Of a stretch of DNA of 64,000 nucleotides, positions 8,658 to 51,850 are shown one piece after another; position 1 is the first letter of the stretch, and every line of letters begins with the position of its first letter. The DNA lies in contig NZ_CP097349.1 in assembly GCF_023516215.1 (NCBI RefSeq), forward strand, positions 682,001-746,000, written 5' to 3'. The translations under genes were made by a program, and so were the position numbers. Under the pieces are notes generated by a model that was not told where the DNA came from, did not search any database, and worked only from the letters and a program-made list of their open reading frames with translations. The DNA comes from Cytobacillus pseudoceanisediminis (GTDB lineage Bacteria; Bacillota; Bacilli; Bacillales; Cytobacillaceae).

Positions 8658-9165
8658 CGACGAAAAAGACGAAGGTCGAAGGAAAATGGGAGTTAATCGA
8701 GAAGAATAACGACGAAAAAGACGAGTGTCGAAGGAAAATGGTAGTTAATCGAGAAGAATAACGACGAAAAAGACGAAGGTCGAAGGAAAATGGGAGTTAA
8801 TCGAGAAGAATAACGACGAAAAAGACGAGTGTTGAAGGAAAATGGTAGTTAATCGAGAAGAATAACGACGAAAAAGACGAAGGTCGGAGGAAAATGGTAG
8901 TTAATCGAGAGGAATAACGACGAAAAAGACGAAGGTCGGAGGAAAATGGGGGTTAATTAAGAATAATAACGACGAAAAAGACAGGGGTAGAAGGAAAATG
9001 GTAGTTAGTCGAGATGAATAATGCCCAAAACGACGAGGGCCGAAGGAAAATGGGAGGTAATAAGAAGAATAACGGCGAAAATCCGAGTGTCGAAGGAAAA
9101 TGTAGTTAATCAAGAAGAATAATGACGAAAAAGACAAGGGTAGAAGGAAATGGTAGTTAATCCTG
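8658..9165 (+). repeat. Tandem array A, 52-bp period, about 10 copies
   Basis: CGACGAAAAAGACGA starts a unit at 8658, 8710, 8762, 8814, 8866, 8918 and 8970, exactly 52 bp apart. Degenerate copies follow near 9022, 9073 and 9123. Each unit continues through TCGAAGGAAAATGG and TTAATCGAGAAGAATAA. Copies 1-2 and 3-4 alternate two subtypes (GAAGGTCG...GGGAG and GAGTGT(C/T)G...GGTAG), so a 104-bp dimer was duplicated. There are no unique spacers. Reading frames through the array are repeat artefacts. It fills the gap between the VOC gene and the DUF1572 gene. Confidence 0.95.
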
Positions 9166-9244
9166 CGTCTCTTCAAAAAACGATTTCACAGGTATAGGTC
9201 CTAATGAGTCCCAATCTTACTGAAGTTAAAAAGGAGGCCATATT

Positions 9245-9787
9245 ATGAGTATAGGTGCAAATTATCTAATGATCGTAAAGAAAAGATTCCAGGCAGTGAA
9301 GGAATTAGCGGATATAACCATTCAGCGGCTTTCCAATGAGGAATTGAATTGGGCTTGCAATGAAGAGTCCAATAGTACAGCGGTAATTATCAGGCATATG
9401 AGCGGCAATATGGTTTCACGGTGGACCAATTTTTTGACATCAGATGGAGAAAAGCCTTATCGAAACAGGGATGAGGAGTTTTCAACAGCCACAGCCACAA
9501 AGGATGAACTATTATTGATTTGGGAAAAAGGGTGGAAAGTACTGTTTTCCGCTTTAGATAGTTTAAAAGAGGAGGATCTGCTTAAAAATATCACTATTCG
9601 AGGCGAGAGCCATCTAGTTATGGATGCAATAGAAAGGCAGATGGCCCATTATTCTTACCATGTTGGACAGATTGTTTATATCGGCAAGCTATTAAAAAAC
9701 GAAGAGTGGGAAAGTCTCAGTATTCCGAGAGGGAAATCCGATGAATTTCTTAAGGAAATGCTCGACAAGCACGATGCCGGAAAATAG
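9245..9787 (+). CDS. DUF1572 / DinB-superfamily protein
   Basis: A 180-residue all-helical protein of the DinB/YfiT four-helix-bundle type, DUF1572 branch. IIRHMSGNMVSRWTNFLTSDGE carries a His of the presumed metal triad. The second His region is QMAHYSYHVGQIVYIGKLL near residues 128-146. The family is likely metal-binding and often thiol-linked, but the substrate is not known. The ATG follows AAGGAGG. It lies immediately after tandem array A. Confidence 0.85.
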   Translation: MSIGANYLMIVKKRFQAVKELADITIQRLSNEELNWACNEESNSTAVIIRHMSGNMVSRWTNFLTSDGEKPYRNRDEEFSTATATKDELLLIWEKGWKVLFSALDSLKEEDLLKNITIRGESHLVMDAIERQMAHYSYHVGQIVYIGKLLKNEEWESLSIPRGKSDEFLKEMLDKHDAGK

Positions 9788-9826
9788 GATAGGCAGTGCA
9801 TTATTTGCAATTGAGGAGGGAAATCA

Positions 9827-10012
9827 TTGAGTAAACTAAGAATATCGCTGGCGGCAGGCAACATTTTAATTTCCCTTTATATGTTAATCACCCAAAGCTT
9901 TGATTGGATTCCATTTAGTTCTTTTCTTTTAGGCATGTTAATGCTGGTGATAGGCTGGGAAGAGCTGAAGAAAGGCAAAAGGGGATTCTTTTTCATCACG
10001 CTTCAAACATAA
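9827..10012 (+). CDS. Small two-helix membrane protein (DUF3953-like)
   Basis: A 61-residue protein with two hydrophobic helices (about 5-22 and 28-45) and a basic GWEELKKGKRG tail. The TTG start follows GAGGAGGG with normal spacing. The GWEELKKG motif resembles YczI/DUF3953 proteins, a tentative match. It lies between the DUF1572 gene and amj. Confidence 0.6.
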   Translation: MSKLRISLAAGNILISLYMLITQSFDWIPFSSFLLGMLMLVIGWEELKKGKRGFFFITLQT

Positions 10013-10048
10013 TTAGCCTAATGGTATAATAAGGAAAAATCGAAAGAA

Positions 10049-10873
10049 GTGTTCTTTTTGGATCTTATGACGGGGAAAATCGTGTTTACTTCTTTATTTA
10101 TTATCCTTATACATAGTATTGAAACACTGGCTTATGCAGTCCGATTATCGGGTGCCAGGGTCAAGCTGATAGCATCAGGGCTTTCTTTGTTCAGTACCAT
10201 TGTCATTGTTTCACGAATGGCAAACATGGGGCAGCAGCCTTTGCTTGGCAGTATTATTGATACAGCGCCTGAACAAAACTTTCTCGTTTATGTGGAAAGC
10301 CAATTCAGGGTGTTAATAGGGGCATCCACAATAGGAACCATAATTGGAATTCTATTGCTCCCAACATTCATAGCCATTTTCTCAAGAGCGATTATCCGTC
10401 TTGCCGATGAGGAAGGGTCGGTTCCTTCATTACTGAAAATCGGGTTTAATTGGAAATCGGCAAAGAGAATGGTTAAACATTTTAAAATTCCGAGAATCTC
10501 CTATTTAAATGGGCTTAAACTTAGTGAAATTCCAAAACGGCTATTTTTATTCAATATGTTTGTAACAGCCATATATACAATTGGAGTACTGGCAGCCTTA
10601 TATGCTTCCCTGCTTACAACGGCTAGCTCAAATACTGCTGTAATGGCATCCGGACTCATAAACGGTGTGGCAACGATTCTTCTATCCATTTTTGTGGACC
10701 CGAAAATTTCTGTTATGTCAGATAATGTGGTGCACGGGAAGGCCAAGTATTCGAATTTAAAAGGAATTTCGATTATGATGGTTACCTCCAGATTGATTGG
10801 AACAGTCCTTGCACAAATCATGTTTATACCCGGTGCATATTACATAGCCTGGGCTTCAAAGTTTTTTGTATAA
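10049..10873 (+). CDS. amj: Lipid II flippase of the Amj family
   Basis: A 274-residue polytopic protein. The N-terminal HSIETLAYAVRLSGARVK, the SRMANMGQQPLLGSIID stretch, and the later VDPKISVMSDNVVHGK motif match Amj (YdaH of B. subtilis). Amj is the alternate lipid II flippase acting alongside MurJ in peptidoglycan synthesis at the cytoplasmic membrane; in B. subtilis it is controlled by SigM. I see no clear SigM promoter here. The start is GTG at 10049. The terminator after it is shared with the convergent DedA gene. Confidence 0.85.
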   Translation: MFFLDLMTGKIVFTSLFIILIHSIETLAYAVRLSGARVKLIASGLSLFSTIVIVSRMANMGQQPLLGSIIDTAPEQNFLVYVESQFRVLIGASTIGTIIGILLLPTFIAIFSRAIIRLADEEGSVPSLLKIGFNWKSAKRMVKHFKIPRISYLNGLKLSEIPKRLFLFNMFVTAIYTIGVLAALYASLLTTASSNTAVMASGLINGVATILLSIFVDPKISVMSDNVVHGKAKYSNLKGISIMMVTSRLIGTVLAQIMFIPGAYYIAWASKFFV

Positions 10874-10884
10874 AACATAAATAG

Positions 10885-10912
10885 AAACGGCACTGTCCAT
10901 CCAGTGCCGTTT
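10885..10912 (+). terminator. Bidirectional terminator between amj and dedA
   Basis: AAACGGCACTG and CAGTGCCGTTT form an 11-bp perfect stem between convergent genes. Confidence 0.9.
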
Positions 10913-10922
10913 CCATTTAAAT

Positions 10923-11534
10923 TTATATACTTTGGCTTTTTTTGCGCTTGTTTACATATTTGTAAGTGAACACTATAATGACTGCTGCAATGATGATCAG
11001 GGCTAGAGGCAGGGCATAGCTATTAAAAATTTCCTCTGCTTCTTTGTAGTGAGGGCCCAGTTTATATCCTAAATAAACATAGAATGCGGTAATCGGCAGC
11101 ATTGCGAGGAATGTATAGATAGAGAACTTCCACACATTCATTTTGGCCATCCCGCATGGAATGGAAATCGCAGTACGGACAACTGGCATAAATCGGGCGA
11201 AGAAAGCTACCCCTGCGCCATATTTTTCAAAAAACTTGTCCGAAGCATCAATCTGTTTTTGAGAAACCAAGAAATATTTTCCGTATTTTAAAACCATTGG
11301 ACGGCCGCCATATCTGCCCAATGCATATAAAGTCAGCGGTCCAATCGTTCCTCCCACTGTACCTGCTAATACGACTAAATAATAATTAAAGTCTCCCTGG
11401 AAGACCCAAAAGCCCGCCAAAGGAAGAACCACTTCTGCCGGGATAAATTCAAAGCATAATGAAAGCAAAATACCAAAGTAAGAAAACTGTTTTAAGAAAT
11501 CAATAAAGCTGATAATAATTTCTGACATAGCCAC
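10923..11534 (-). CDS. DedA-family membrane protein
   Basis: A 203-residue member of the DedA/VTT superfamily. It has the characteristic FEFIPAEVVLPLAGF segment, the GGTIGPLTLYALGRYGG motif, and FFARFMPVVRTAISIPCGMAKM, which includes the conserved Arg and Pro. Members act as lipid scramblases or transporters and affect membrane energetics and undecaprenyl-phosphate recycling. Its neighbour amj handles lipid II, so both may serve envelope lipid traffic (inference). Confidence 0.92.
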   Translation of the reverse strand: MAMSEIIISFIDFLKQFSYFGILLSLCFEFIPAEVVLPLAGFWVFQGDFNYYLVVLAGTVGGTIGPLTLYALGRYGGRPMVLKYGKYFLVSQKQIDASDKFFEKYGAGVAFFARFMPVVRTAISIPCGMAKMNVWKFSIYTFLAMLPITAFYVYLGYKLGPHYKEAEEIFNSYALPLALIIIAAVIIVFTYKYVNKRKKSQSI

Positions 11535-11557
11535 ACATCCTGTTGATTAATAAGAAA

Positions 11558-11610
11558 AGCGCAAGCGCCTTGCCCACCCCGACACCTCGAGGGGGCAGGC
11601 TGCTTGCGCT
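11558..11610. repeat. REP-like palindromic element
   Basis: A 9-bp perfect inverted repeat (AGCGCAAGC at 11558, GCTTGCGCT at 11602) encloses a GC-rich loop with CACCCCGACACC and GAGGGGGCAGGC. The GC content contrasts with the surrounding AT-rich intergenic DNA. It resembles the dispersed 'GCGCAAGCGCC' palindromic repeats I associate with Bacillaceae. Only one copy was seen in this window. Confidence 0.55.
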
Positions 11611-11706
11611 GGACAATTCACGAAATTAAAAGATATAAAACGTACATAAGTCAGTCTAACGGGTAATAGGAAAACAATCAAGTATTTATATAGACAGGCA
11701 AAAAAG

Positions 11707-11740
11707 AAACGGCAGCTGCCGTAACCGGAGCCGCCGTTTT
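11707..11740 (-). terminator. Intrinsic terminator of the CNNM/CBS gene
   Basis: An imperfect stem AAACGGC...GCCGTTT, with inner GGCTCC/GGCAGC pairing, has a T-rich tail on the minus strand just past the stop codon. Confidence 0.75.
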
Positions 11741-11742
11741 TC

Positions 11743-13053
11743 CTAGCTTAATTGGGGCTTGCTTTTAAAAACTTCCAGATAATGCAGCTGGTGCCCATCT
11801 TTTTCGTGGACTTTAAATGTAAATCCATCTGCTTCAATCTCTGTTCCTATCTCTGCTTCCATATGCTGTGTCAGGAACCAGCCGCCGATTGTATCAACGT
11901 CTTCATGCTCAAAATCTGTGCCAAGCAGATTATTGACATCGTCTATAAGAAGCTTGGAATCCAGAATATAGTGGTTATCGTTAAGCTTTCTAATTTCAGG
12001 AACCTCATCTTCATCAAATTCATCACGGATTTCTCCGACAATTTCTTCAAGAATGTCTTCGACAGTCACCAATCCGGAAGTTCCGCCATATTCATCCATT
12101 AAAATGGCAATATGGATGCGTTCTTTTTGCATTTTGACTAGCAGGTCATGAATCGGAATGCTTTCAATTACATGGATAACCGGGTTAATAAACGAGTCAA
12201 GCTCAAGATTCTCCGGGGTGATCCTGTTTGTAAGACTGGCCGTCAGAAATTCTTTTACATTAATAAACCCTCGGATATTGTCCTTATCCCCATCTTCCAC
12301 TGGATATCGTGTGTAATTCTCTCTCTGGATTGTTTGCATAATATCTTCTATTGTGTCATCAGAAGCAATCGTAATCATTTCAGTACGCGGAACCATGATT
12401 TCTTTTGCAATTCTTTCATCAAATTCAAAGATATTGTTCACGTACTTTAACTCATTTTTATTGATCTCACCGCTTTTATAACTCTCGGATAAAAGAATTC
12501 GCAGTTCTTCTTCGGAATGGGCGATCTCATGCTCAGAAGCCGGTTTTAAACCAAATATGCCAACCAGTACCCGAGCAGATCCGTTTAAGAACCAAATGAA
12601 AGGGAACATCAAACGGTAGAACCAAATAATCGGCGCTGCGAACGCCATTGTAACAGCCTCAGCTTTTTGAATGGCAACGGTTTTTGGTGCAAGCTCACCT
12701 ACAACCACATGCAGGAAGGTGACTAAAGCAAAGGCTATGCCGAAGGATAAAATATGGGTAAGCGATTCGGCAATCTCAAATCTTTCAAATACCGGGTGCA
12801 ATAACTTTTCGACAGTAGGCTCACCAAGCCAGCCCAGCCCTAATGCGGTAATGGTTATTCCCAATTGACAGGCTGATAAATACTCATCAAGGTGAGTGAC
12901 GACTCTCTTAGCTGAAATAGCCCTTTTATTGCCCTCAGCAATCAGTTGATCAATTCGGGAAACACGTACTTTTACAATCGCAAACTCAGTTGCTACGAAG
13001 AATGCGGTTAATGCTATTAATAGTGCAATCAGTAATAAATTTATGGTTGTCAA
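11743..13053 (-). CDS. CNNM/CBS-domain (hemolysin-family) transporter
   Basis: A 436-residue protein: an N-terminal CNNM (DUF21) membrane domain (about 1-190; [54 protein letters not shown]), a CBS pair (about 205-330; [43 protein letters not shown]), and a C-terminal CorC_HlyC domain (about 345-430). Members related to MpfA/YugS export Mg2+. The annotated start is a TTG with a weak ribosome site. A strong AGGAGG lies instead before a nine-codon ORF ending over that TTG (see next entry), so the true N-terminus is uncertain. Confidence 0.9.
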
Positions 13054-13079
13054 CGAGCAGTCTTACTAAAGTAAGACAT
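13050..13079 (-). CDS. Nine-residue leader ORF, or N-terminal extension of the CNNM gene
   Basis: ATG at 13079 follows a near-perfect AGGAGG. It encodes MSYFSKTAR and stops at a TGA that overlaps the TTG start of the CNNM gene (TTGA). Either it is a coupled leader peptide, or one missing T after CGT breaks a protein that begins [14 protein letters not shown]. The second reading fits the single-base losses seen across the window. Confidence 0.4.
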
Positions 13080-13155
13080 ACACCTCCTAAAATGGTTATA
13101 ATCCTTATAAAGTTCACTACTTAAATTGTGCCCAAATAGATATCCATAATGCTCC

Positions 13156-13178
13156 AAAAACCCAAAAAACGTTTTGGG
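13156..13178 (-). terminator. Putative terminator of the MerR gene
   Basis: On the minus strand CCCAAAA-CG-TTTTTTGGG forms a stem followed by TTTTT. It sits just past the MerR stop codon. Confidence 0.55.
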
Positions 13179-13186
13179 ACAGGATA

Positions 13187-13586
13187 TCAGTTGAGCAATA
13201 AAAGCAATGTTTGAATTAATGATAAGCTTTCATGTGAAATATTCTTTTTGACATATTCGTATTTTTCGGGATCAGATTTTTTAAGCTGTGAAAGTGCTTT
13301 TGTCACATCTTCCTCCAGATCCTGAATTTTGAGCCTTAGTTCAAGAACATCTACCTCTTCAGAAAATCGGCCGATAACTTTTTCTTTATTTCCTCCAGCG
13401 ACAAACCATCCGCTTTACATTTTTCGATAAAAGCAATACGTTCGATGGCGGAATAATCATAATAGCGATAATTTGAAGGGGAACGTTCTGCTTTTAGCAG
13501 TCCGAGTGAAGTATAGTAATCAATCGTTCTCTTAGTAACCTTTGCTTTTTCAGCCAATTCTCCTATTCTTAACTTCTCAGCCCCAT
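13187..13586 (-). CDS. MerR-family transcriptional regulator, frame broken twice
   Basis: The joined protein is about 133 residues. ATG at 13586 has a GGAGG site but stops after a few codons. One more G in its G run gives MGAEKLRIGELAEKAKVTKRTIDYYTSLGLL, the classic MerR helix-turn-helix. A second break at the T5 run 13379-13383 (A5 on the coding strand) leaves a stop at 13351. One more A there continues the protein as a Leu-rich coiled coil (ELRLKIQDLEEDVTKAL) to a stop at 13187. No Cys-rich effector loop is seen, so it is not a typical metal sensor. Its target is unknown. Confidence 0.75.
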
Positions 13587-13696
13587 GAGGATTCCTCCAA
13601 ACTGTTACGTGATGGTTATGAATCTAATTATACTAAAAAATAATAGAAAATCAATGAATTTGAATAATGAAACAAGCAGGGAGGAAGAGATTTCCA

Positions 13697-13725: not shown

Positions 13726-13734
13726 ATTTTGCAT

Positions 13735-15104: not shown

Positions 15105-15232
15105 TGCAGTGTTCCCTCTCAACACGCTTACGAGGTTAGCTGTCGGGTTCGGGTCTTGAGAGTACCCTACCTGTAAAAGGATTCACCCCAGGTACTTTTG
15201 TTAAAAAAGTACAGTTGGTTCCCCCGCTCAAT
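15105..15232 (-). promoter_or_regulatory. c-di-AMP (ydaO/yuaA) riboswitch
   Basis: Reading the minus strand from 15232, the ydaO/yuaA signature blocks come in order: GAGCGGGGGAACCAA, CTGGGGTGAATCC, GGGTACTCTCAAGACCC, GAACCCGACAGCTAACCTCG and TAAGCGT...GAGAGG. A terminator follows. The class binds c-di-AMP and normally shuts genes off when c-di-AMP is high. It faces the acidic amino-acid symporter that starts 114 bp past the terminator. Confidence 0.93.
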
Positions 15233-15388
15233 TAAGATTAAGCGAAAATTATTAATGTTTTTTTAATATATTAACAATAATCATAAAAGTTGTAAATCAT
15301 ACGATTTTCTTATCTAGGTTTACTAAGGTTACTATAATTCAAATAGTAATTTAATAGGAAAGGTCAATTTGGTTTTTTAGCAATAAGA

Positions 15389-20022: not shown

Positions 20023-20118
20023 TATTTTACTTACTTTGAAAAAAAGATTGACAAGAGATTTCCATGGGAGTAATTTATATTTATTAATTTCATAGTAACC
20101 TTTTTGCTGAATCATTAT

Positions 20119-20276
20119 GAGCGGGGGAACCAATTTTGATAAACCTGGTTTATCTTGGGGTGAATCTTAGCATATTAAGGCTAAGAAGGGATACTCTCAA
20201 TCCCTAATCCGACAGCTAACTCCGTAAGCCGAATCGAGGGAAGGGTTGATGGAAACCATTGGCCATTCTTTTTTTA
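20119..20276 (+). promoter_or_regulatory. c-di-AMP (ydaO/yuaA) riboswitch of ktrAB
   Basis: All class signature blocks are present: GAGCGGGGGAACCAA, TTGGGGTGAATCTTAG, GGGATACTCTCAATCCC, TAATCCGACAGCTAACTCCG and TAAGCCGAATCGAGGG. Beyond 20243 a weak hairpin (GATGG/CCATT) followed by seven T at 20270-20276 is the candidate terminator. The target is ktrAB, the textbook c-di-AMP-repressed K+ importer. Confidence 0.93.
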
Positions 20277-21023: not shown

Positions 21024-22393
21024 ATGTATAAGGAGCATAAAAGAATGAGGAGAATGGGACGTTCCTATAACTGGATAAAAATGAATCCGGCACAAATGCT
21101 TTCGGTCGGTTTCTTAATCTTAATTGGTGTAGGCACACTGCTGCTGATGCTGCCTTTTGCTACGAAAGACAGACATCATTTATCGTTTATCGATGCACTT
21201 TTTGAGGCGACTTCTGCTGTATGTGTAACGGGTCTCGTGGTAGTGGATACCCAAACCACATTTACTGTTTTTGGCCAGATTGTACTGATGGTCCTCATAC
21301 AGATTGGCGGCCTTGGATTTATGACATTTGGGGTTCTCATAGCTATCATGCTTGGAAAGAACATTGGTTTGAAAGGAAGGCTGATGATCCAGGAATCTTT
21401 AAATCAGCTTTCGATTGAAGGGATGGTCAGGCTGGTTAAATTCGTTGTCGGCTTTACATTAATCGCTGAAATGATCGGTGCATTGATATTGGCTATTCGC
21501 TGGTCGTCCGATTTTGGCTTCCCCGCTCATTGTATTATGGCATTTTCCATTCGGTTTCTGCCTTTAATAATGCCGGATTCGATATAATGGGCCAATTCAG
21601 GAGCGTTACTGAATATGCCGGTGATTTTACTGTCATCATGACACTCAGCTTCCTGTTAATAATCGGAGGTATCGGCTATATCGTTGTACTTGATGTAAAA
21701 AGAAACAAGAGTTTGAAAAAGCTCTCTTTGCATACAAAATTGGTCCTCCTGATGACGCTGATCCTTAACATTCTCGGAACAGTATTTATCTTTGCGCTTG
21801 AATATGATAATCCTGGGACACTTGCCAATTTGCCTTTAAAAGATAAACTATTGGGGGCTTTTTTTCATGGTGTGGTCCCGAGAACGGCTGGATTTAATTC
21901 TTTGAATACTGGCGAATTAACTTTAGGTTCGCAGCTGGTAACAATGCTGCTCATGTTCATTGGAGGGGGATCAGGAGGTACCGCCGGCGGCATTAAAGTC
22001 ACTACCTTTGTCTTGATTTTTCTTGCAGTCAGAGCGCTGATAAAGGAAGAAGATGAAGTGAGCCTGATGGGAAGGCGAATTCCAAAGGATCTTATTGTCA
22101 GAGCTTTTACAATAACCGTCTATTCAATAGGATTCATCTTCTTTATCTTATTTATTTTATCCATAACAGAAAATGCTCCATTGAACGTCCTTTTATTCGA
22201 GGTGATATCCGCTTTTGGCACGGTAGGCATGTCGATGGGGCTCACACCTGAATTAAGTGCAACAGGAAAAGGGGTAATTGCATTTATGATGTTTGCAGGA
22301 AGAGTAGGGCCAATCACAATCGCTTTTGCACTTGCCCGAAGAAAAGGAAAGGCCAAATATAAATTTGCAGAAGAGAAAATCATGATTGGATAA
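21024..22393 (+). CDS. ktrB: K+ channel subunit KtrB, frame broken at a C run
   Basis: Joined, this is a Trk/Ktr/HKT-type protein of about 457 residues with four M-P-M repeats. The selectivity-filter Gly motifs are visible: VCVTGLVV, AFNNAGFD, RTAGFNSLNTG and AFGTVGMSMG. The intramembrane gating loop GGGSGGTAGGIK is intact. The first frame ends at 21587; one more C in the C4 run 21521-21524 restores FPRSLYYGIFHSVSAFNN. With KtrA it imports K+ coupled to Na+ across the cytoplasmic membrane. The break in a key osmoregulation gene argues for a sequence error. Confidence 0.92.
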
Positions 22394-22914: not shown

Positions 22915-22949
22915 CAGGATAGAGTGGGATGCTTCTATCCTGTTTTTTT
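22915..22949 (+). terminator. Intrinsic terminator of the MarR gene
   Basis: CAGGATAGA and TCTATCCTG form a 9-bp perfect stem followed by TTTTTTT. Confidence 0.88.
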
Positions 22950-22960
22950 GTGAAGGTCAT

Positions 22961-23270
22961 GAAGCCCAAAATGAGAACAGCGCTGAGAAACAGTCGCCAT
23001 GAAGGCTCCATGAACCCGAAAAGTCGTGAAGCGAGAAGAAAACAGTCGCCATGAAAGCTTCATGAAGCCGAAAAGTCGTGAAGCGAGAAGAAAACAGTCG
23101 CCATGAAAGCTTCATGAAGCCGAAAAGTCGTGGAGCGAGAAGAAAACGATCGCCATGAGGCAGTCATGAAGCCGAAAAAGAGAGCAGCGGTAAGAAAACG
23201 GTCGCCATGAGGCAGTGATGAAGCCGAAAATGGGAGCAGCGCCGAGAAAACTGTTGCCATGAATCTATAA
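22961..23270 (+). repeat. Tandem array B, 52-bp period, six copies
   Basis: Units start at 22961, 23012, 23064, 23116, 23168 and 23220. The core is GAAGCCGAAAAGTCGTGAAG, then CGAGAAGAAAACAGTCGCCA, then TGAAAGCTTCAT. Copies 2-4 are almost identical; the outer copies are more diverged. There are no unique spacers and no believable gene. It fills the gap between the MarR terminator and the oxygenase gene. Confidence 0.93.
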
Positions 23271-30721: not shown

Positions 30722-30944
30722 TAAAAGGAGAGAGGTGCAGGGAAGCAGTTTTTTACATTTTCTTTCGGATAGTCAAATTTTATTTACAGATAAAATGTTA
30801 TAAGCTGTTTTTATGACTGGATAACAGAAATTATTTGCGTACATTGCAGAAATGAAAATGTTATCCTAATAACTAACTTCGAAAAGCATAGTGTACAAAA
30901 TAAGAAAAATATACTGTAGAAAAAATAAAAAATAATTTTAGTAA

Positions 30945-30958: not shown

Positions 30959-31006
30959 AGGGTTGAAGTTTTCAGAAGACTTTGATAAGATTTAAAAAAC
31001 TGAAAA

Positions 31007-31077
31007 GGCTATGTGTAACTGGCGAAACGCGGATCACCGCGAGGGAGCACATAGTGTCGAAGCCGTTCGCCTGGGCA
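31007..31077 (+). promoter_or_regulatory. ZTP (pfl) riboswitch upstream of serA
   Basis: The outer stem is CTATGTG / CACATAG. The first conserved loop AACTGGCGAAAC and the GCGG/CCGC hairpin with GAGGGAGC follow. The invariant 3' block AGCCGTTCGCCTGGGCA closes the aptamer. These are hallmarks of the pfl motif, which senses ZMP/ZTP, the alarmone of 10-formyl-THF shortage. It turns on one-carbon and purine genes; here the target is serine synthesis. Confidence 0.88.
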
Positions 31078-31114
31078 GAGGTAAGGGATTCTACCCTTGC
31101 CTCTTTCTGTTTTA
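31077..31114 (+). terminator. ZTP riboswitch expression-platform terminator
   Basis: AGAGGTAAGGG pairs with CCCTTGCCTCT (one mismatch) and is followed by TTCTGTTTT. Its 5' arm overlaps the end of the aptamer, as expected for ligand-controlled antitermination. Confidence 0.85.
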
Positions 31115-31150: not shown

Positions 31151-32350
31151 GTGAGTACCATGACTTTAGACAGAGTGAAGACGATTAAAACGCTGAATGC
31201 GATTGCGCCAAGCGGTCTTGAGGTGTTTAACAAGGATCAATTTACAATCGATAATGAAAGCGGCAATCCGGATGCGATAGTCCTTCGGAGCTTTAATATG
31301 CATTCAATGGAATTGGGTGATCGATTAAAAGCAATTGCCCGTGCAGGCGCGGGTGTGAATAATATTCCGGTTGAGAAATGCACTGAACAGGGCATTGTTG
31401 TTTTTAATACACCTGGTGCCAATGCGAATGCAGTAAAAGAAATGGTGCTTACTTCCTTAATGGCTTCATCCCGCAATCTCTTTGCCGGCATCTCCTGGAC
31501 CAAAACGCTGAAAGATGAAGGAGACCAGATTCCTAAGCTTGTAGAAGCAGGGAAAAAGCAATTTGTCGGAAAAGAAATTAAGGGGAAAACTCTCGGTGTG
31601 ATCGGATTGGGGGCAATCGGGGCCCTTGTGGCCAATGATGCACTTGAACTTGATATGGATGTCGTAGGCTTTGACCCATTCATTTCGGTTGACACTGCCT
31701 GGAACTTATCCCGCAATGTTCAGCGCGCCATGACCATTGAGCAGGTGTTTGCAGAATCTGACTATATCACTGTACATGTTCCATTAACCGATGATACAAG
31801 GGAAATGTTCAATGAAGATACATTCAGCATGATGAAGAATGGTGTTCATATTCTGAATTTCTCACGCGGGGAGCTTGTGAATGAATCAGATATGGCAGCC
31901 GCCCTTGAAAGCGGAAAAGTGGGCAAGTATATTACAGATTTCCCAAATGAAAATATCCTGAAAATGAAAAACGCAGTGGCAATTCCGCACCTTGGCGCTT
32001 CAACAAAAGAATCTGAGGAAAACTGCGCTGTCATGGCAGCACGACAGGTGAAGCACTTCCTTGAAACAGGCAATGTCAAAAACTCAGTTAACTTCCCAAA
32101 TGCTGCTCTTCCTTACACAGGCAAGCGGCGTGTCACTGCTTTTCATAAAAACATTCCTAATATGGTCGGCCAAATCACACTTGCTATTTCAAGCTACCAG
32201 CTGAATATTGCGGACATGGTGAACCGCAGCCGCGGTGAATATGCGTATACCATGATCGATATCGATAATAAAGTTAATGGTGATGTCATCCCTGGACTGC
32301 TTGAACAGATTAATCAAATTGAAGGCATTATCAAGTCACGAATTATATAA
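31151..32350 (+). CDS. serA: D-3-phosphoglycerate dehydrogenase
   Basis: This 399-residue enzyme makes 3-phosphohydroxypyruvate, the first step of serine synthesis. The substrate domain includes RAGAGVNNIPVEKCTEQGI. The Rossmann domain has the NAD motif GVIGLGAIG (near residue 150). The catalytic Arg lies in NFSRGELVN, and the Glu/His region in IPHLGASTKESEENCA. A C-terminal ACT-type domain (about 320-399; ITLAISSYQLNIADMVNRSRG) may bind serine. GTG at 31151 follows AAGGGGAGA closely; ATG at 31160 is an alternative. The ZTP riboswitch directly upstream ties serine supply to one-carbon demand. No serC neighbour is seen. Confidence 0.92.
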   Translation: MSTMTLDRVKTIKTLNAIAPSGLEVFNKDQFTIDNESGNPDAIVLRSFNMHSMELGDRLKAIARAGAGVNNIPVEKCTEQGIVVFNTPGANANAVKEMVLTSLMASSRNLFAGISWTKTLKDEGDQIPKLVEAGKKQFVGKEIKGKTLGVIGLGAIGALVANDALELDMDVVGFDPFISVDTAWNLSRNVQRAMTIEQVFAESDYITVHVPLTDDTREMFNEDTFSMMKNGVHILNFSRGELVNESDMAAALESGKVGKYITDFPNENILKMKNAVAIPHLGASTKESEENCAVMAARQVKHFLETGNVKNSVNFPNAALPYTGKRRVTAFHKNIPNMVGQITLAISSYQLNIADMVNRSRGEYAYTMIDIDNKVNGDVIPGLLEQINQIEGIIKSRII

Positions 32351-36212: not shown

Positions 36213-36331
36213 ATGGATGAATATAGTGGAATTACGAATATTAAATAGTTAATATGAACTAAATGTTCGTATTTTAGTTGAAAACCCACGTGCTATTTGT
36301 TATATTGTCATTGTAATCTTACAAATTTCAT

Positions 36332-36404
36332 CACTCGTATATGCTCGGTAATATGGTCTGAGTGTTTCTACCTGGTTCCCAATGAAAGAACCGGACTACG
36401 GGTT
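36332..36404 (+). promoter_or_regulatory. Purine riboswitch, guanine/hypoxanthine class
   Basis: P1 (ACTCGTA / TACGGGT), the J1/2-P2 block ATATGCTCGGTAATATGGTC, GTTTCTACC in J2/3, P3 (CCTGGTTC / GAACCGG) and the closing GACTACG are all recognisable. The specificity position is C (GACTA rather than GATTA), which pairs with guanine or hypoxanthine, not adenine. The downstream gene encodes a lipoprotein nucleosidase. A long leader (about 36405-36495) with an AAAAGGCTG/CAGGCCTTTTT pairing is the candidate terminator. Confidence 0.9.
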
Positions 36405-36547
36405 AAAGTATAGAAAAGGCTGCATTCTTTATGTCAGCTGCTTTAACTCTATGGTCTGGAAGGTAGATATCATTCTGCTTTTACAGGCCTTTTTCTATGG
36501 TTAGAACTTCGGGTGTATCAGACAACAAGAAAAGGGGAGAACGTACA

Positions 36548-37417
36548 ATGAAAAAGAAATTAGCTTCACTCGCTGCGATTGCAGCACTGTCTGCAGCAAT
36601 GCTTGCAGGATGCTCTTCGGCTGCAAAATTAGAAACCGAGGCTGAAGGTGCCCAAAAGCCAATTCTTATCCAAGGGCCAATGCCGATCGAGGCCGAAAAG
36701 TTTGCTGAGCGATTAGATAAAGTTAAAGTAGAAAAATCAGGGAACTTTGTTTTTTATAAAGGAAAGCTGGACAAGTACCCAGTCATCGTTGCTAAAACCG
36801 GAAAAGGCATGGAAAATACGGCGGCTGCCACAGCAATCGCCATCGAAAAGTATGATCCAGCCGCAATCATCAATCAGGGGACTTCAGGCGGCCATGACCC
36901 AAGCCTGAATGTGTATGATATCGTTTTAGGAGAAAGAACAGTCAATATCGGATCATTGAAGACTGGTCATTTGGAAGAAGGGGAAGGGATTGAACCAACC
37001 AATTGGATCCCGATGGACCTGATGGCTTCTGAGGGAAGTGCCGGTGAAGACCCTGATGCAGAAAAGATTCGTTATTATGAGGGAAATGAAGACCTTCTTG
37101 CTGCTGCCAAAGCAGTAAAAGATAAGCACAAGAAGGGCAAAGTAGTCGAGGGGACAATCGGTTCAGCGGACCTATGGAATAATGAAGTTGACCGCATCAA
37201 ATGGTTTCATGAAAACTACGGAACATCGGTTGAAGAAATGGAAGGCGCAGCAGCAGCGCAGATTGCCGGAGCATACGATGTTCCATTCCTGGGAATTCGT
37301 ATTCTTTCTAATAACAAAACAAACGGAGGCCAATACGACCCCAACACTGCTGCTGCAAACCAGGATTACGTATATGAAGTCGTAAAACAGTATATTTCAG
37401 AGATAAAAGGAAAGTAA
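36548..37417 (+). CDS. Lipoprotein of the purine nucleoside phosphorylase / MTA-SAH nucleosidase fold
   Basis: A 289-residue protein from ATG 36548 after AGGGGAG, with a type II signal peptide and lipobox AMLAGC (lipid-attached Cys near residue 22). The mature part has the PNP_UDP fold: ILIQGPMPIEAEKF at the start, KTGKGMENTAAATAIAIEKYDPAAIINQGTSGG, and the substrate/catalytic block SVEEMEGAAAAQIAGAYDVPFLGIRILSNN with the ribose-binding Met-Glu. Relatives cleave nucleosides to base plus ribose. The outward location plus the guanine-class riboswitch suggest scavenging of extracellular purine nucleosides. Confidence 0.88.
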   Translation: MKKKLASLAAIAALSAAMLAGCSSAAKLETEAEGAQKPILIQGPMPIEAEKFAERLDKVKVEKSGNFVFYKGKLDKYPVIVAKTGKGMENTAAATAIAIEKYDPAAIINQGTSGGHDPSLNVYDIVLGERTVNIGSLKTGHLEEGEGIEPTNWIPMDLMASEGSAGEDPDAEKIRYYEGNEDLLAAAKAVKDKHKKGKVVEGTIGSADLWNNEVDRIKWFHENYGTSVEEMEGAAAAQIAGAYDVPFLGIRILSNNKTNGGQYDPNTAAANQDYVYEVVKQYISEIKGK

Positions 37418-37439
37418 ATTGGCTATTTACTTATTAGGA

Positions 37440-37895
37440 CAGGAGAAGGACGAATCCGAGGAATTGAGTCCGAAGTCGGAGCACTTCGGACAGAATTAAG
37501 CAAGAATCCGAGGAATTGAGTCCGAAGTCGAGGCACCTTCGGACAGAAGAAGCAAGAACCCGAGGGAATGAGTCCGAACACGGCCCCCTTCGGACAGGAT
37601 AAGGATAATTCCGAGGAGTTGAGTCCGAAGTCGGAGCACCTTCGGACAGAAGAAGCAAGAATCCGAGAGAATGAGTCCGAAGTCGGAGCACCTTCGGACA
37701 GAAGAAGCAAGAATCCGAGAGAATGAGTCCGAACACGGCCCCCTTCGGACAGAAGAAGCAAGAATCCGAGGGAATGAGTCCGAACACGGCCCCCTTCGGA
37801 CAGAAGAAGCAAGAATCCGAGGGAATGAGTCCGAACACGGCCCCCTTCGGACAGAAGAAGAAAGATTCTGAGAGGATGAGTCCGAACTCGCTCGC
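37440..37895 (+). repeat. Tandem array C, 51-52 bp period, nine copies
   Basis: GAGTCCGAA starts a unit at 37466, 37518, 37570, 37621, 37673, 37725, 37776, 37827 and 37878. Each unit has the inverted pair TCCGAA...TTCGGA around CACGGCCCCC or GTCGGAGCAC, then CAGAAGAAGCAAGAATCCGAG. The two loop subtypes alternate irregularly. Because 51 is a multiple of three, long ORFs open on both strands; they are artefacts. It separates the nucleosidase gene from the convergent HxlR gene. Confidence 0.95.
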
Positions 37896-47018: not shown

Positions 47019-47110
47019 CAAGCTGTCATCTTGACGGCTTTTTTCAGCTTTGTTGGCGGGATAAGGGGTTTTTTATCAAATTACTAAGTGCCAGCATTCA
47101 TCAGAGAGGG

Positions 47111-48394
47111 GTGCTCATATGGAACTGGAAGAAAAAGGAGTCATCTGAACGTTTGAGGCTGAATAAAAAGATCATGTGGGGAATAACGATTATTTCGATC
47201 CTCTTAGCGATGTTCTATATAGATAAGCAAAAGGTATACAAGGAAGAAAAACCGCCAATGCCCACTGTACTATTAGGGGAGCAGGAGTTACATCCAATCT
47301 TAAGCACTTATACATGGAACGCAGGAAAAATTGAGAAGGAGATAAAAGATCTTACCAAATTGATTGAATATCAGCATGCTGAATTTCGCGAGAATCTTAA
47401 CATAGAATTTCCTAAAGATCAGCAGCCCATCTTCATTGCTAGAGGAAATTACTATAATGGCGGGATTCAAGTAGAGCCTTATCAAACTCTTTATAGTAAT
47501 TTTACACTATTAAGAAACGAATCCCGCAAAGAAATATATTCTATAAAAGCCTACTGGAAGGATGGCAAGCGGGCTGAATATATCATACCTGTTAACATTA
47601 AAGAGGTTAGTCCGGAAAAGAACTATCTGGCAAGGAATAAAGGGTATCATTCACTTCTGATTGTTGGAGATACTGATAAAAATGTAATTGATGAACTCTA
47701 TTCGGAACCATTGCACTTTCTTTTCGAAACAAGCAATTCATTAGGTCTAAAGGATGTAAATGATATTTATCTTGAATTACAAGTAAAGGAAGAGCCAAGT
47801 TATATTTTATTTGATCATACGAAGGAAGTATTTCGCGCAGCTTCTCTAGAAGAGTTATTGAAATATATGAAAGAAAATACGTATTCTAAAAAAAGCACAA
47901 TAGAGGGAAAAGTCACAAAGCTGGATCGAAATTTAGGAGTAATCCAAGTGGATGATAAAATTTTTACTGCTGCAGATATGGAAGAGGTTAAAGTTGGACA
48001 GAAAATCTCTTTAGAGGTGATTCAGCTAAATAAGGACATCCCTTACTATCGAGCAATCGAAAACATCAATGTGATAAAAGCTCCTGACACGGTCTTTTCC
48101 GCTGCTAAATGGCTAGCGAAGGATGCTGAAAAGGTTTCTATTCTTGCTATTGGACCATCTGCCTTTACTGAGCAGTTTAAATCTCCAAATAAGGAAGACT
48201 TCAAGCTGGTGGAAAATATAGAGATTCAAGAGACACTAACATTAAAAAATGGAGAGGCAATCACAGATGCTGCTGTTTATGTATTTAATGATAAGGAATT
48301 AGTTTTTCAGACGGACGAATTTGACCAGCTCCTGAACTATTTATTTGAGTTTGAAATGTTAATGCCTGCTAGAAAGGAAAGAAACGGTCTTTAG
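47111..48394 (+). CDS. Membrane-anchored hypothetical protein
   Basis: A protein of up to 427 residues with one N-terminal membrane helix (MWGITIISILLAMFYID) and a large extracytoplasmic part. The latter has beta-rich stretches, including an OB-like segment (EGKVTKLDRNLGVIQVDDKIFTA). The start is uncertain: GTG 47111 sits too close to its site, and ATG 47174 lies at the membrane helix. An ATG at 47119 in another frame has a better site, so a frameshift at the 5' end is possible. I do not recognise a family. Confidence 0.65.
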   Translation: MLIWNWKKKESSERLRLNKKIMWGITIISILLAMFYIDKQKVYKEEKPPMPTVLLGEQELHPILSTYTWNAGKIEKEIKDLTKLIEYQHAEFRENLNIEFPKDQQPIFIARGNYYNGGIQVEPYQTLYSNFTLLRNESRKEIYSIKAYWKDGKRAEYIIPVNIKEVSPEKNYLARNKGYHSLLIVGDTDKNVIDELYSEPLHFLFETSNSLGLKDVNDIYLELQVKEEPSYILFDHTKEVFRAASLEELLKYMKENTYSKKSTIEGKVTKLDRNLGVIQVDDKIFTAADMEEVKVGQKISLEVIQLNKDIPYYRAIENINVIKAPDTVFSAAKWLAKDAEKVSILAIGPSAFTEQFKSPNKEDFKLVENIEIQETLTLKNGEAITDAAVYVFNDKELVFQTDEFDQLLNYLFEFEMLMPARKERNGL

Positions 48395-48416
48395 TGCAGC
48401 GAAAGGGGAATAAAGG

Positions 48417-48903
48417 GTGACTGCTCCTATTATCAAAACAGACAGATTAATAGCGATCTGTCTCATTTAATGGAAATTTTCTCTGACCCGGTGGCCATGA
48501 GATTTTATCGCTCAAAAAACAAGAGAACAGGCCGAAGAATGGATCAGCTGGACCTTGCATAATTATCGGACGCATGGTGTGGGCCTTTGGGTTGCGGAAG
48601 AAAAACATCCGGCAGGTTTTTGGGGCGGTGCGGAATTACCCCCAGGATACAGGCGGCGTTACAGAAATGGAGATTGGCTATTTGTTTGCCAGGCGTGAAT
48701 GGGGAAAAGGCTATGCGGCGGAAGCGGCATTAGCCTGTAAGGAATATGGGTTTAAAAGCTTAAAATATAAAAAGCTGGTTTCCATTATAAATGTGAAAAA
48801 TTTTGCTTCTATCCGTGTTGCGGAAAAAGCTGGCATGAAAAAGGAAAAAACATTTCTCAGAGCGGGAAATAAGATGTATGTATATTCCATATCAAACGGT
48901 TAG
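48417..48903 (+). pseudogene. GNAT acetyltransferase, multiply disrupted
   Basis: GTG 48417 opens VTAPIIKTDRLI, but the protein is then spread over several frames: DLSHLMEIFSDPVAMRFYRS (from 48455), TREQAEEWISWTLHNYRTHG (from about 48519), a central GFLGRCGITP piece, and DTGGVTEMEIGYLFARREWG onward to 48903. The last part has the acetyl-CoA loop REWGKGYAAEAALACKEYGF. At least four indels are needed and some N-terminal codons seem absent. This is more damage than elsewhere, so real decay is possible. It is of the RimJ/RimL type. Confidence 0.65.
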
Positions 48904-48907
48904 CATT

Positions 48908-49396
48908 TTAGATGATGTTTTTATAATGTTCATTAAATACCTTAAAAAGCCTTTCATCACCGCCTCGGTCTGGATGGAGGGCTTTTAGCAGTTTCTTGAA
49001 TTCTTTACGGATCAATTGCATATCCTCATCAGGTTTCAAGCCCAGAAGCTTTCCAGGCTTGATTTCTTCATCAGCAATCATATTTTGGGCTTGTATCATT
49101 TTCTTCAATGATCTAACTTTGGATTCCTCTATTTGGACTCTAGTATTCAGGATCTCTATTTGTCCTTTAAGGTCTTTAACTTGCACGAGGATCCCTTCTA
49201 GTTTTTGCTGATAAAGCTCTTCATGTTTTTTGATGATGAAATCATTGAGATCCTTCGTCTTAATTGTGTAGCTGATTTGCCTCCTGGGGCTTCGATCCGC
49301 TTTCATTTTTCCTTCTTCAATCCAGCGCTCAATGTCGGCCCCATTCGCCTTTATTCCAGCTTTATGTAATTGTGCCACAGCATCAGTAATGTTCAT
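48908..49396 (-). CDS. Coiled-coil protein with a C-terminal J domain
   Basis: A 162-residue protein. The N-terminal 45 residues look like a MerR-type helix-turn-helix (NITDAVAQLHKAGIKANGADIERWIEEGKM). A coiled coil follows (about 55-105; EELYQQKLEGILVQVKDLKGQIEILNTRVQIEESK). The end is a compact J domain (LIRKEFKKLLKALHPDRGGDERLFKVFNEHY) with the HPD tripeptide that stimulates DnaK ATPase. J domains usually sit at the N-terminus, so this order is unusual. It may recruit DnaK to a bound target (inference). Confidence 0.78.
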   Translation of the reverse strand: MNITDAVAQLHKAGIKANGADIERWIEEGKMKADRSPRRQISYTIKTKDLNDFIIKKHEELYQQKLEGILVQVKDLKGQIEILNTRVQIEESKVRSLKKMIQAQNMIADEEIKPGKLLGLKPDEDMQLIRKEFKKLLKALHPDRGGDERLFKVFNEHYKNII

Positions 49397-49603
49397 GCTT
49401 CATGCTCACTCTCTATAAAATCTATTTAGCATTCAAAAACATCATATCACTGAACACTTTCAGAAAAATAACAAGCAGATAACATAGTATTAAAGTTTAT
49501 TTACACTGGTAACGCCATCATTTCGAAGAACTGGAATTATTAGAAAATTAGGTGGAATCTTGGTATAATGTAAAAAAATGGATGAGGAAGGATGGGGATA
49601 ATA

Positions 49604-49732
49604 TTGAAGAAAATGTTTAAATTTGCAGTATGGGTCGCTGCTTTACCGTTTATTCTGCTGTGGACAATCTTTTTTGATTCGAGCGGAAACTCTGCCATGT
49701 TTGTGAATGATGTATTAAATGATAAAAAATAG
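49604..49732 (+). CDS. Small membrane protein, 42 residues
   Basis: TTG 49604 or ATG 49613, after an AGGAAGGATGGGG stretch, encodes a peptide with one strong hydrophobic helix (FKFAVWVAALPFILLWTIFF) and a short polar tail ending DVLNDKK. A TATAAT-like hexamer (GGTATAATG) lies about 40 bp upstream. No family is recognised. Confidence 0.5.
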   Translation: MKKMFKFAVWVAALPFILLWTIFFDSSGNSAMFVNDVLNDKK

Positions 49733-49881
49733 GTTGAAGAAATCCTATGTTTAAGTTTGATTGTTAGCTGAACCAATCGGACCGTATGGGCAGCTGGACT
49801 CCCGTACATCCTCAGTTGAACCTTTGAGTGAGGGAGTCTTATGCCCGTTAGACTGCTGTAAAGTGAAACTTCAACAAACAA

Positions 49882-50124
49882 TTACTTTATAGGGCGCTCG
49901 AGAGTCAGGATTTCATCCTCCATTGAAGCATATTGCTGCTCCACTACATGCTTAACATCTGAAATTGCTGCATTGTAAAAATGCGGGGCCAATGACTCTT
50001 TAACAAAATCCAGCACCCTTTCTGCACCGAACTCAGATATTTCCTCATCTCTTTCTTCAGAGAAAAAAATCTGGATATCCTCGATCATCTTTTGCTGCTG
50101 CTCTTTTGTTATTTTTAAAAACAT
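49882..50124 (-). CDS. DUF2164 protein
   Basis: An 80-residue protein counted from ATG 50124 after GGAAGG; a longer in-frame reading upstream has no site. The sequence (LKITKEQQQKMIEDIQIFFSEERDEEISEFGAERVLDFVKE, then FYNAAISDVKHVVEQQY) follows the DUF2164 pattern closely. The function is unknown. Confidence 0.83.
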   Translation of the reverse strand: MFLKITKEQQQKMIEDIQIFFSEERDEEISEFGAERVLDFVKESLAPHFYNAAISDVKHVVEQQYASMEDEILTLERPIK

Positions 50125-50241
50125 GCCATGCCTTCCTTTCGGTTTTGGATACATGTTACTATACACGGAAATTTTATCAAAAGGGAGGCTGTTATTTTTA
50201 AAAGAAATATGTACAGCAGGAAAATGGAGAGTTCCTGCCAA

Positions 50242-50418
50242 CTACTTATGTGATGATTCATCGCCATAGACATCAAAGAGAAGGCTGTAATAATCTTTTA
50301 CATAAATGTCTTTGTTTGCAGCTTTCTTTTTCGGATAGAGAGAAATAGGGATAGATGACAAGGCAAGAATCGAGCTGCATAATAGAACCAGATATAATAT
50401 TCCAGATAGAATGAACAT
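50242..50418 (-). CDS. Small single-helix membrane protein, 58 residues
   Basis: ATG 50418 follows AAGGAGGTATCC. The peptide has an N-terminal membrane helix (ILSGILYLVLLCSSILALSS), then a basic stretch (YPKKKAANKD) and a soluble end (YYSLLFDVYGDESSHK). It lies 117 bp upstream of the DUF2164 gene on the same strand. I do not recognise the family. Confidence 0.6.
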   Translation of the reverse strand: MFILSGILYLVLLCSSILALSSIPISLYPKKKAANKDIYVKDYYSLLFDVYGDESSHK

Positions 50419-50456
50419 TTAGGATACCTCCTTGAGTTGTTAAAAAAGCTTAAATT

Positions 50457-50472
50457 ATGAAACGCATTTCAT
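50457..50472 (+). promoter_or_regulatory. Palindromic operator upstream of the LacI gene
   Basis: ATGAAACGCATTTCAT is a near-perfect 16-bp palindrome 33 bp before the LacI-type start codon. Its size and symmetry suit LacI-family binding, so autoregulation is likely. It is also cre-like in its flanks. Confidence 0.6.
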
Positions 50473-50505
50473 AGCAAGAAAAAATGAAAAAAATTAGGTG
50501 GTTTT

Positions 50506-51468
50506 ATGGCAAATATAAAAGACATCGCTAAAAAGGCAGGAGTTTCAGTTACGACCGTATCCAGAGTGCTGAATAATCATCCTTATGTAAGTGAGGATAA
50601 AAGGGAAGCTGTCTTGCGGGTGATGGAGGAATTCAATTATCAGCGAAATATTAATGCAGTCCATTTAAGTAAAGGGGAAACACTTCTTATAGGGGTCGTA
50701 GTTCCTTTTACCAATCATCCTTATTTCGGCCAGCTGGTAGAAGGGATTGCAAATGAGGCCATGAAAAACAACTATAAATTAGTTCTTTTTCAAACAAATT
50801 ACGAGGAAGACAGGGAGATTGAAGCTCTAAAAATGCTTCAGCATAAACAAATCGACTCTTTAATCATCTGTTCCAGAATCTGCGAATGGGATGTCATCAA
50901 TCAGTTTACCGAGTATGGCCCCATTGTTCTCTGTGAAGATGCGAGGAATCGTAATGTATCATCTACTTTTATCGACCATTACATGAGTTTCTCTAATGCT
51001 TTAGAGTATCTGCATAACAAAGGGCATCAGAAAATCGGGTATTGCATTGGAAGAAAGACTGGTGCCAACAGCAGGCAGCGCGGAAAGGCTTATGCTGATT
51101 TTTTAAAACGAATTGACGAACCATATAAGGAAGAATTTATCTTCTATGAATGTCTGCATTTTGAGCATGGCGAAGAAGTGGTCCGGCGATTATCGAACAT
51201 GGATAATCCCCCATCTGCTCTGCTGGTAACAAATGATTTTGCTGCTGCCGGAATAGTAACTTCCTGCAGGGAAAACGGCATCCATATTCCGGATGATCTG
51301 GCAATCATGGGATTTGATAACCAGCCAATAGCCAAAATCATGCACATTACAACACTTGAAATTCCGCTGGTTCAAATGGGAAGGCAGCTGCTTCTTCAAG
51401 CGATTGATGGTAAAAAGCACACACATCAGGAGATATCGGTGAAGCTGATCGAACGGCAAACCGTATAG
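50506..51468 (+). CDS. LacI-family transcriptional regulator
   Basis: A 320-residue repressor. The N-terminal helix-turn-helix and hinge (IKDIAKKAGVSVTTVSRVLNNHPYVSEDKREAVLRVMEE) are followed by a periplasmic-binding-protein-like domain (about 60-320; LIGVVVPFTNHPYFGQLVEGI, VLCEDARNR, HQKIGYCIGRKTGANSRQRGKAY, PPSALLVTNDFAAAGIV, DLAIMGFDNQPIAK). The effector is probably a sugar-like ligand but is not identifiable. No transport or catabolic genes are adjacent. Confidence 0.92.
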   Translation: MANIKDIAKKAGVSVTTVSRVLNNHPYVSEDKREAVLRVMEEFNYQRNINAVHLSKGETLLIGVVVPFTNHPYFGQLVEGIANEAMKNNYKLVLFQTNYEEDREIEALKMLQHKQIDSLIICSRICEWDVINQFTEYGPIVLCEDARNRNVSSTFIDHYMSFSNALEYLHNKGHQKIGYCIGRKTGANSRQRGKAYADFLKRIDEPYKEEFIFYECLHFEHGEEVVRRLSNMDNPPSALLVTNDFAAAGIVTSCRENGIHIPDDLAIMGFDNQPIAKIMHITTLEIPLVQMGRQLLLQAIDGKKHTHQEISVKLIERQTV

Positions 51469-51482
51469 CATTAAGTTGTTTG

Positions 51483-51508
51483 AAGCGGCTGCCCTCAGCC
51501 GTTTTTTT
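51483..51508 (+). terminator. Intrinsic terminator of the LacI gene
   Basis: AAGCGGCTG-CCCT-CAGCCGTTTTTTT. Confidence 0.88.
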
Positions 51509-51559
51509 ATTTATTTGTTTTTGCAATTTAAAGATATCAGAGGGTGTCCATTCTGACAG

Positions 51560-51850
51560 CTGAAAGAGAAGTCTTATGAAATGAGTCTGAACAATGCTTA
51601 TCTTCGGACAGGAGAAGATGTAATCCGAGGGAACGAGTCCGAACATAGCACATCTTCAGACAGAAGGAGATGAAATCCATGGAATGAGTCCGAACAAGGC
51701 TCATCTTCGGACAGGAGAAGAAAAAACCCGTGGGAATGAGTCCGAACAAGGCTCATCTTCAGACAGAAGGAGAAGAAATCCGAGGGAGTGAGTCCGAACA
51801 TAGGACATCTTCAGACAGATGAAGAAGAAATCCCTGGGAGAGAGAAATCC
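51560..51850 (+). repeat. Tandem array D, 51-52 bp period, five copies
   Basis: GAGTCYGAA or the CGAGTCCGAA variant begins units at 51583, 51635, 51686, 51738 and 51790. The unit (GAGTCCGAACAAGGCTCATC, TTCGGACAGGAGAAG, AATCCGAGGGAAT) is the same design as array C, with the TCCGAA/TTCGGA or CTTCAGACAG inverted arms. It lies between the LacI terminator and the membrane-protein operon. The small ORFs within it are artefacts. Confidence 0.93.

Follow-up and report, generated by a model that had tools for sequence, protein, structure and literature searches.

Tandem arrays with a unit of about 52 bp recur between the genes of the Cytobacillus pseudoceanisediminis chromosome; nearly all of those counted point the same way as the replication fork, and two families of unlike sequence share a dyad that spans 25 bp. 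Four of these arrays, A to D, lie in the 64-kb stretch analysed here (the window, 64,000 nucleotides from contig NZ_CP097349.1, positions 682,001 to 746,000). The arrays are tentatively read, with a confidence that stops a little short of even, as helically phased, fork-oriented series of putative protein-binding sites that would have grown by tandem amplification. Repeats of this kind have so far been reported with a fixed length and without known function or sequence conservation, and fork polarity together with a mirror-image core opens an easier way to test what they do.

Orientation to the replication fork

The census took in the window and amounted to 2,635,864 bases out of a 5.35-Mb chromosome (the genome measures 5.69 Mb); it yielded 34 non-overlapping arrays with a period of 50–54 bp and at least 2.3 copies. 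The further 51–52 bp arrays anticipated by the original prediction are thus present in the examined half of the chromosome and, as it had also claimed, they keep to the space between genes, with any overlap with a called gene limited to 30% of the array length in all 34. The merged list holds 122 repeats, 34 of them with a period of 51–52 bp, 52 bp being the commonest period and a few repeats having one of 103–104 bp. The 34 arrays comprise 15 of family 1 (GTCCGAA-N10/11-TTCGGAC), nine of family 2 (AACGAC..GTAGTTA), five of family 3 (GTCGCCATGA..TCATGAAGCC) and five outside these families, two of which are poor arrays (633465, 72% matches, and 1456177, 58%); a possible tenth member of family 2, at 3791383, is a poor match.

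On the host chromosome dnaA is found at 4.151 Mb, and the dif motif places the dif site at 1.695 Mb. Among the matches listed, and with orientation taken from the alignment to the family, 25 of the 26 counted arrays of families 1–3 in the host run with the fork (p = 4e-7 against 0.5), as do 91 of 97 in six Cytobacillus genomes (G000, the host, 25/26; G020, 20/21; G018, 16/17; G009, 7/8; G032, 18/19; G034, 5/6). Match rows were merged by hand into arrays for this count, arrays at orthologous sites of several genomes do not count as independent observations, and the 26 host arrays include weak matches at 1418174 (E 0.0005), 3493278 (E 0.08) and 1595132 (E 0.94). The count sets aside G007, which has no dif match, contigs without dnaA (e.g. 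C2 and C4 of G034) and the other genomes of the genus with matches. Of the six wrong-way arrays, three are family-2 arrays in G000, G020 and G018 that may go back to a single ancestor; G009, G032 and G034 contribute one apiece.

The arrangement of the flanking genes tells the direction of the fork apart from that of transcription. When orientation is read from purine content, as in the census, all nine clear arrays with convergent flanks follow the fork, as do four of five with divergent flanks and 15 of 16 with tandem flanks, four more arrays being ambiguous. The array at 3935952, a tandem-flank case, has two head-on genes around it and yet runs with the fork. The exceptions by purine content are the arrays at 3332619 and 1594658, and the latter is counted with the fork only through the E 0.94 match at 1595132. 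Convergent regions hold 10 of the 34 arrays, compared with 170 of 1357 intergenic regions of 100–3000 bp, a background in which length was not controlled (Fisher p 0.008). Finally, the leading strand exceeds a purine content of 0.62 in 24 of the 34 arrays but in only 0.8% of 842 ordinary intergenic regions, where it equals 0.523 (sd 0.04); the purine richness of the arrays is therefore more than local skew.

A dyad of constant span

The unit of family 1 carries GTCCGAA-N11-TTCGGAC, that of family 2 carries GTAGTTA-N11-TAACGAC with one mismatch, and that of family 3 an imperfect GTCGCCATGA-N5-TCATGAAGCC, each spanning 25 bp. The loop measures 11 bases in 94 of 112 family-1 dyads and 100 of 111 family-2 dyads (9–13 allowed), and 5 bases in 34 of 36 family-3 dyads (3–7 allowed). 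Since these motifs had been picked by eye, an unconstrained test was added, in which the best dyad of each Tandem Repeats Finder (TRF) consensus was sought over the 23 spans from 15 to 37. The best span is exactly 25 in 15 of the 34 arrays (8 of 15 in family 1, 6 of 9 in family 2 and one outside the families), so that 14 of these 15 arrays belong to two unlike families, within each of which the arrays are not statistically independent. Inverted repeats with perfect arms are significant chiefly in family 1.

The same geometry recurs in published units. Of 27 published consensuses, which represent 13 species, seven contain GTC-N19-GAC, again of span 25, against 0.19 expected (shuffled expectation 0.13–0.22 per span); three have GTC..GAC at span 23 and three at one of the remaining spans between 15 and 36. 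The motif was chosen after family 1 and the published table had been viewed, which makes this test post hoc. The seven consensuses come from coagulans (2), litoralis (2), oceanisediminis, thermoamylovorans and alkalitelluris. One unit, coagulans family 8, matches arrays in at least 34 of 397 genomes of the order and at least 18 of 135 genera, a lower bound as two candidates were scored per genome; given relatives in 18 genera, the species-specific label applied to 52-nt repeats is too strong for this family. That search supplied 26 loci, a TRF array was obtained at 22, and 19 of the 22 carry GTC..GAC at span 25, typically as GTCCTTCAT-N7-ATGAAGGAC; the query carries GTC..GAC at the same span. 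Ten of the 12 loci with tandem flanks agree in direction with the flanking genes (taken as the longest open reading frame, ORF), the remaining loci comprising six with convergent ORFs, three with divergent ORFs, one cut and four without an array call. A weight matrix built on the GTCCTTCAT dyads of other genera was tried as a finder of host arrays and placed 3 of its top 100 sites in them, compared with 0–5 for permuted matrices, so the link between the arrays of other genera and those of the host is one of geometry only.

The four arrays of the window and turnover at one site

Within the window, all four arrays lie on the + strand: array A at 8653-9162 (family 2, 52 bp, 9.9 copies), array B at 22957-23263 (family 3, 52 bp, 5.9 copies), array C at 37437-37887 (family 1, 51–52 bp and 51 bp by TRF, 8.8 copies) and array D at 51576-51839 (family 1, 52 bp, 5.0 copies). 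Both TRF and a lag scan (lags 10–259, windows of 80 bases, identity 65%) thus recover the four intergenic arrays that had been predicted; the scan flagged no other place, and TRF added one short repeat with a 23-bp period at 30881-30931. Units match one another at 81–90% within an array, and the purine content of the + strand is 0.76 in A, 0.68 in B, 0.65 in C and 0.64 in D. All four lie between called genes according to a simple in-house gene caller. In a mechanical ORF list, no ORF of at least 100 aa falls in A, B or D, and three minus-strand ORFs span C. Judged by eye, B lies directly 3' of an apparent terminator at about 22917-22951, D lies downstream of a terminator, and C has a nucleosidase-like gene on one side and an apparent terminator on the other.

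Examples of the 25-bp dyad on the + strand are GTAGTTA-N11-TAACGAC in A (8741-8765), an imperfect dyad in B (23045-23069) and GTCCGAA-N11-TTCGGAC in both C (37520-37544) and D (51688-51712). The inner units of A show their dyad with 0–3 mismatches and both edge units are poor; in D, the right arm reads TTCAGAC in three of the five good dyads. Circular alignment places C and D in one family (p<=0.003; all such p values are from mononucleotide shuffles and uncorrected), as had been proposed. Homology of A with C and D over the whole unit is not supported, since A aligns with either no better than shuffles do, and neither does B (p 0.46-0.63 for A or B against C or D); A and B resemble each other weakly (p<=0.023). 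What survives of the likeness of A to C and D is the 25-bp dyad geometry found in most 52-bp units. B, which had been said to share only the period and a CCGAA plus AGAAGAA pattern, has no more than an imperfect dyad of this geometry. The claim that the unit length is far more constant than the sequence holds, and the common orientation of the four arrays in the window fits a location on a single replication arm.

The original prediction also saw a regular spacing of about 14 kb. The gaps in the window are indeed 14.2, 14.6 and 14.0 kb, and their equality has a post hoc p of 0.005 under uniform placement and of 0.021 under gap permutation. Across the first 1.68 Mb of the chromosome, however, gaps range from 0.4 to 427 kb and clumping is evident, 18 of 24 gaps being shorter than 40 kb where 10.9 would be expected. 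The sister species G018 and G032 have C–D distances of about 10.4 and 11.6 kb, respectively, with the C site confirmed by its flanking gene and D presumed to be the adjacent family-1 array. Given the wide range of gaps, the post hoc p values and the other C–D distances in the sisters, the 14-kb rhythm looks accidental.

The gene upstream of C (36497-37417, +) has as its best match 5'-methylthioadenosine/adenosylhomocysteine nucleosidase (NF004079), below the cut-off, and served as the flank marker for the C site in relatives. Its protein is identical to one in Cytobacillus oceanisediminis 2691; the host is close to that species, and G020 is listed as the same species. The C site holds 8.8 copies in the host and in strain 2691 (L171), 4.0 in L172, 3.2 in L173, 4.3 in L177 and 7.7 in L210, and, in the sister species, 9.8 in G018 (L252) and 8.8 in G032 (L253); by eye, L174 has about 2.5 copies and L175 about one, L178–L181 show no array, and the contig of L176 ends there. 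L254 and L256 are possibly duplicates of strains L172 and L173. Copy number thus ranges from about 1 to 9.8, and unit consensuses are 75–94% identical to that of the host; in L172, L173, L177 and L210, units only 75–77% identical stand beside a protein that is 90–97% identical. The site persists, and both its copy number and its sequence turn over.

Several other elements were recorded in passing. A purine riboswitch (36315-36418) lies immediately 5' of the nucleosidase-like gene. The window also holds two cyclic di-AMP riboswitches, at 15109-15254 (-) and 20095-20245 (+), the second upstream of a stretch with a TrkH-like ORF (21530-22393), and a ZMP/ZTP riboswitch (31005-31083) upstream of the ORF at 31151. 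Elsewhere on the chromosome (G000:C1), arrays with a 103-bp period, about 2 x 51.5, occupy 307551-308034, 533542-534111, 1371421-1372031 and 3221929-3222200; sub-repeats of 21 bp are seen in three of them and CGCGCAAA-like motifs in two, and the periods of 21, 52 and 103 bp are all close to whole multiples of the helical turn. A dispersed 104-bp element (GTCCCTAGGAGCCGCAACTAGACAAACCGAAA..) occurs at G000:C1 286047-286235 and at six more census sites, and a stretch similar to it was seen by eye in L181; it lies with the leading strand at one of the seven sites and opposite to it at six, which makes it unsuitable as a neutral control for orientation.

Explanations and known systems

Each unit measures about five helical turns of DNA; in families 1 and 2 it contains a 25-bp dyad, whose half-sites are separated by roughly two turns, and then about 27 bp of purine-rich spacer. 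On the protein-site reading, a dimeric DNA-binding protein would occupy the dyad, and the fixed period would align one dimer after another along the same side of the helix. The arrays lengthen and shorten by tandem duplication with their orientation to the fork kept, and might act as a directional protein–DNA element, for instance an insulator or roadblock between a leading-strand gene and head-on traffic. Several results weigh against this reading. Measured against the co-orientation of genes, 1988 of 2509 called genes (79%) being on the leading strand, the host polarity has a p of only 0.017. A family-2 array of about 16 copies (G000:C1 3332619-3333459) runs opposite to the fork and to its flanking genes alike, and has likely counterparts in G020 and G018. 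The fit is poorer outside the genus: in five genomes, 7 of 9 arrays agree with a fork whose terminus was assumed to lie opposite dnaA. Dyads are individually significant (p<=0.05) in only 13 of the 34 arrays, none of the six span-25 arrays of family 2 is among these (p 0.13-0.39), and family 3, that of array B, fails the unconstrained 25-bp test. Furthermore, the GTCCTTCAT matrix, no better than its control, reveals no sequence kinship across genera for the host families, and neither a binding protein nor a gene was identified for the units.

Part of the same evidence suits a rival that we rate as somewhat unlikely, namely that the arrays are selfish or neutral satellites which replication slippage with a step of about 52 nt makes and homogenises, their orientation reflecting strand-dependent stability at the fork and no function. 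The variation of the C site from about one to 9.8 copies, the turnover of its units beside a conserved protein, and a polarity that tracks replication between convergent genes (9/9) and at the head-on-flanked array 3935952 all agree with slippage; a 25-bp span and GTC..GAC ends common to unlike units are not expected from it alone, and the wrong-way array of about 16 copies persists. It is improbable, in our judgement, that the arrays act as RNA, their hairpins binding a protein or pairing with mRNAs from 3' untranslated regions or small RNAs, as Subirana and Messeguer suggested. Array C does follow a stop codon and precede an apparent terminator, PMC8625621 reports RNA-seq matches to 52-nt repeats in B. 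coagulans, and folding z-scores are negative on the sense strand (mean -2.2, 25 shuffles each); the antisense strand, however, folds equally well (mean -2.5), B and D, judged by eye, lie downstream of terminators, and it is hard to see what five turns of DNA as a period would mean for an RNA. Broken pairs on the purine-rich strand show no excess of G-T (19) over C-A (37), although 20 of the 37 C-A breaks fall in one column, and with fold scores so nearly symmetric a sense-strand RNA hairpin was rejected. In family 1 the breaks concentrate at the fourth pair (CG 78, CA 20, TG 5, AG 5; n=112), and in L177 and L210 a left arm GTCAGAA faces TTCGGAC in most units, a pattern that suits reading by a protein better than base pairing; the evidence thus favours a protein-read DNA site over a strand-specific RNA hairpin. 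Very unlikely, finally, is a one-way valve in which pyrimidine-rich head-on transcripts load Rho and transcription against the fork is ended: the leading-strand GC skew of the arrays (mean 0.19, positive in 28 of 34) and their enrichment in convergent regions are in keeping with it, but the sense-strand loops of array C are C-rich, hairpins would hinder Rho, and the 52-bp period is left unexplained.

For the protein-site reading, polarity and dyad geometry offer practical handles, namely a pull-down probe, a predicted direction of effect and a test of phase. Should the polarity be functional, many Bacillales would have in their intergenic satellites a directional level of chromosome organisation; should it be mutational, the arrays would be a natural record of strand-specific repeat instability. 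It is a long shot that the 52-nt repeats of Bacillales form one ancient functional class, recognisable not by sequence but by geometry (the 25-bp GTC..GAC dyad and the five-turn period) and acting as directional, fork-polar protein–DNA barriers at gene ends, which would let co-directional traffic pass and stop head-on traffic.

When compared with known systems, the arrays recall clustered regularly interspaced short palindromic repeats (CRISPR) in their palindromic unit and regularly spaced intervening sequence. Their spacers, in contrast, are similar copies of one another, and Cas1 (PF01867), the sole Cas protein searched for, was not found in the host genome; on these grounds this identity was rejected. 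Like SpoIIIE recognition sequences they are purine-rich and fork-oriented; the SpoIIIE recognition octamer GAGAAGGG, however, occurs 0 times on both strands of about 13.3 kb of array sequence, and this candidate was rejected. Repetitive extragenic palindromic (REP) sequences and bacterial interspersed mosaic elements (BIMEs), as described in PMC3733652, are likewise intergenic palindromic units, often 3' of genes, between convergent or unidirectional genes and sometimes in tandem, whereas the host arrays run head-to-tail with a 52-bp period. Mobilisation by a REP-associated tyrosine (RAYT) transposase was rejected, since the Y1 transposase domain (PF01797), found in 5 of 14 control genomes, has no match in the host.

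The closest relatives are the 52-nt tandem repeats of Bacillus (Subirana and Messeguer 2021, PMC8161180), which that source describes as constant in length, variable in sequence, non-coding, present as multiple families per genome and found in about 30% of species in a set of 176 Bacillus genomes. The same paper reports no sequence conservation, mentions that a single repeat often contains short signals together with their reverse, proposes a nucleoid protein or small RNAs and leaves the function open; its main text uses 'orientation' 0 times and 'replication' once, and its Table 4 has no entry of 51-53 nt for B. subtilis 168. A search by title and opening of the abstract returned nothing on the polarity of 52-nt repeats, a 2020 J. 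Bacteriol. paper by the same authors lying outside its scope, and absence from print is not claimed. Arrays A–D have the length of 51-53 nt and the four or more copies of these satellites (9.9, 5.9, 8.8 and 5.0), the 34 host arrays are non-coding and intergenic, and three families share one length. In Table 1 of Subirana and Messeguer, the oceanisediminis families 79_52_5 and 96_54_4, when reverse-complemented, read GTCCGAA..TTCGGAC and GTAGTTA..TAACGAC, i.e. families 1 (arrays C and D) and 2 (array A). The arrays therefore belong to this published class and the phenomenon is already known; new here are the fork polarity and the 25-bp GTC..GAC geometry.

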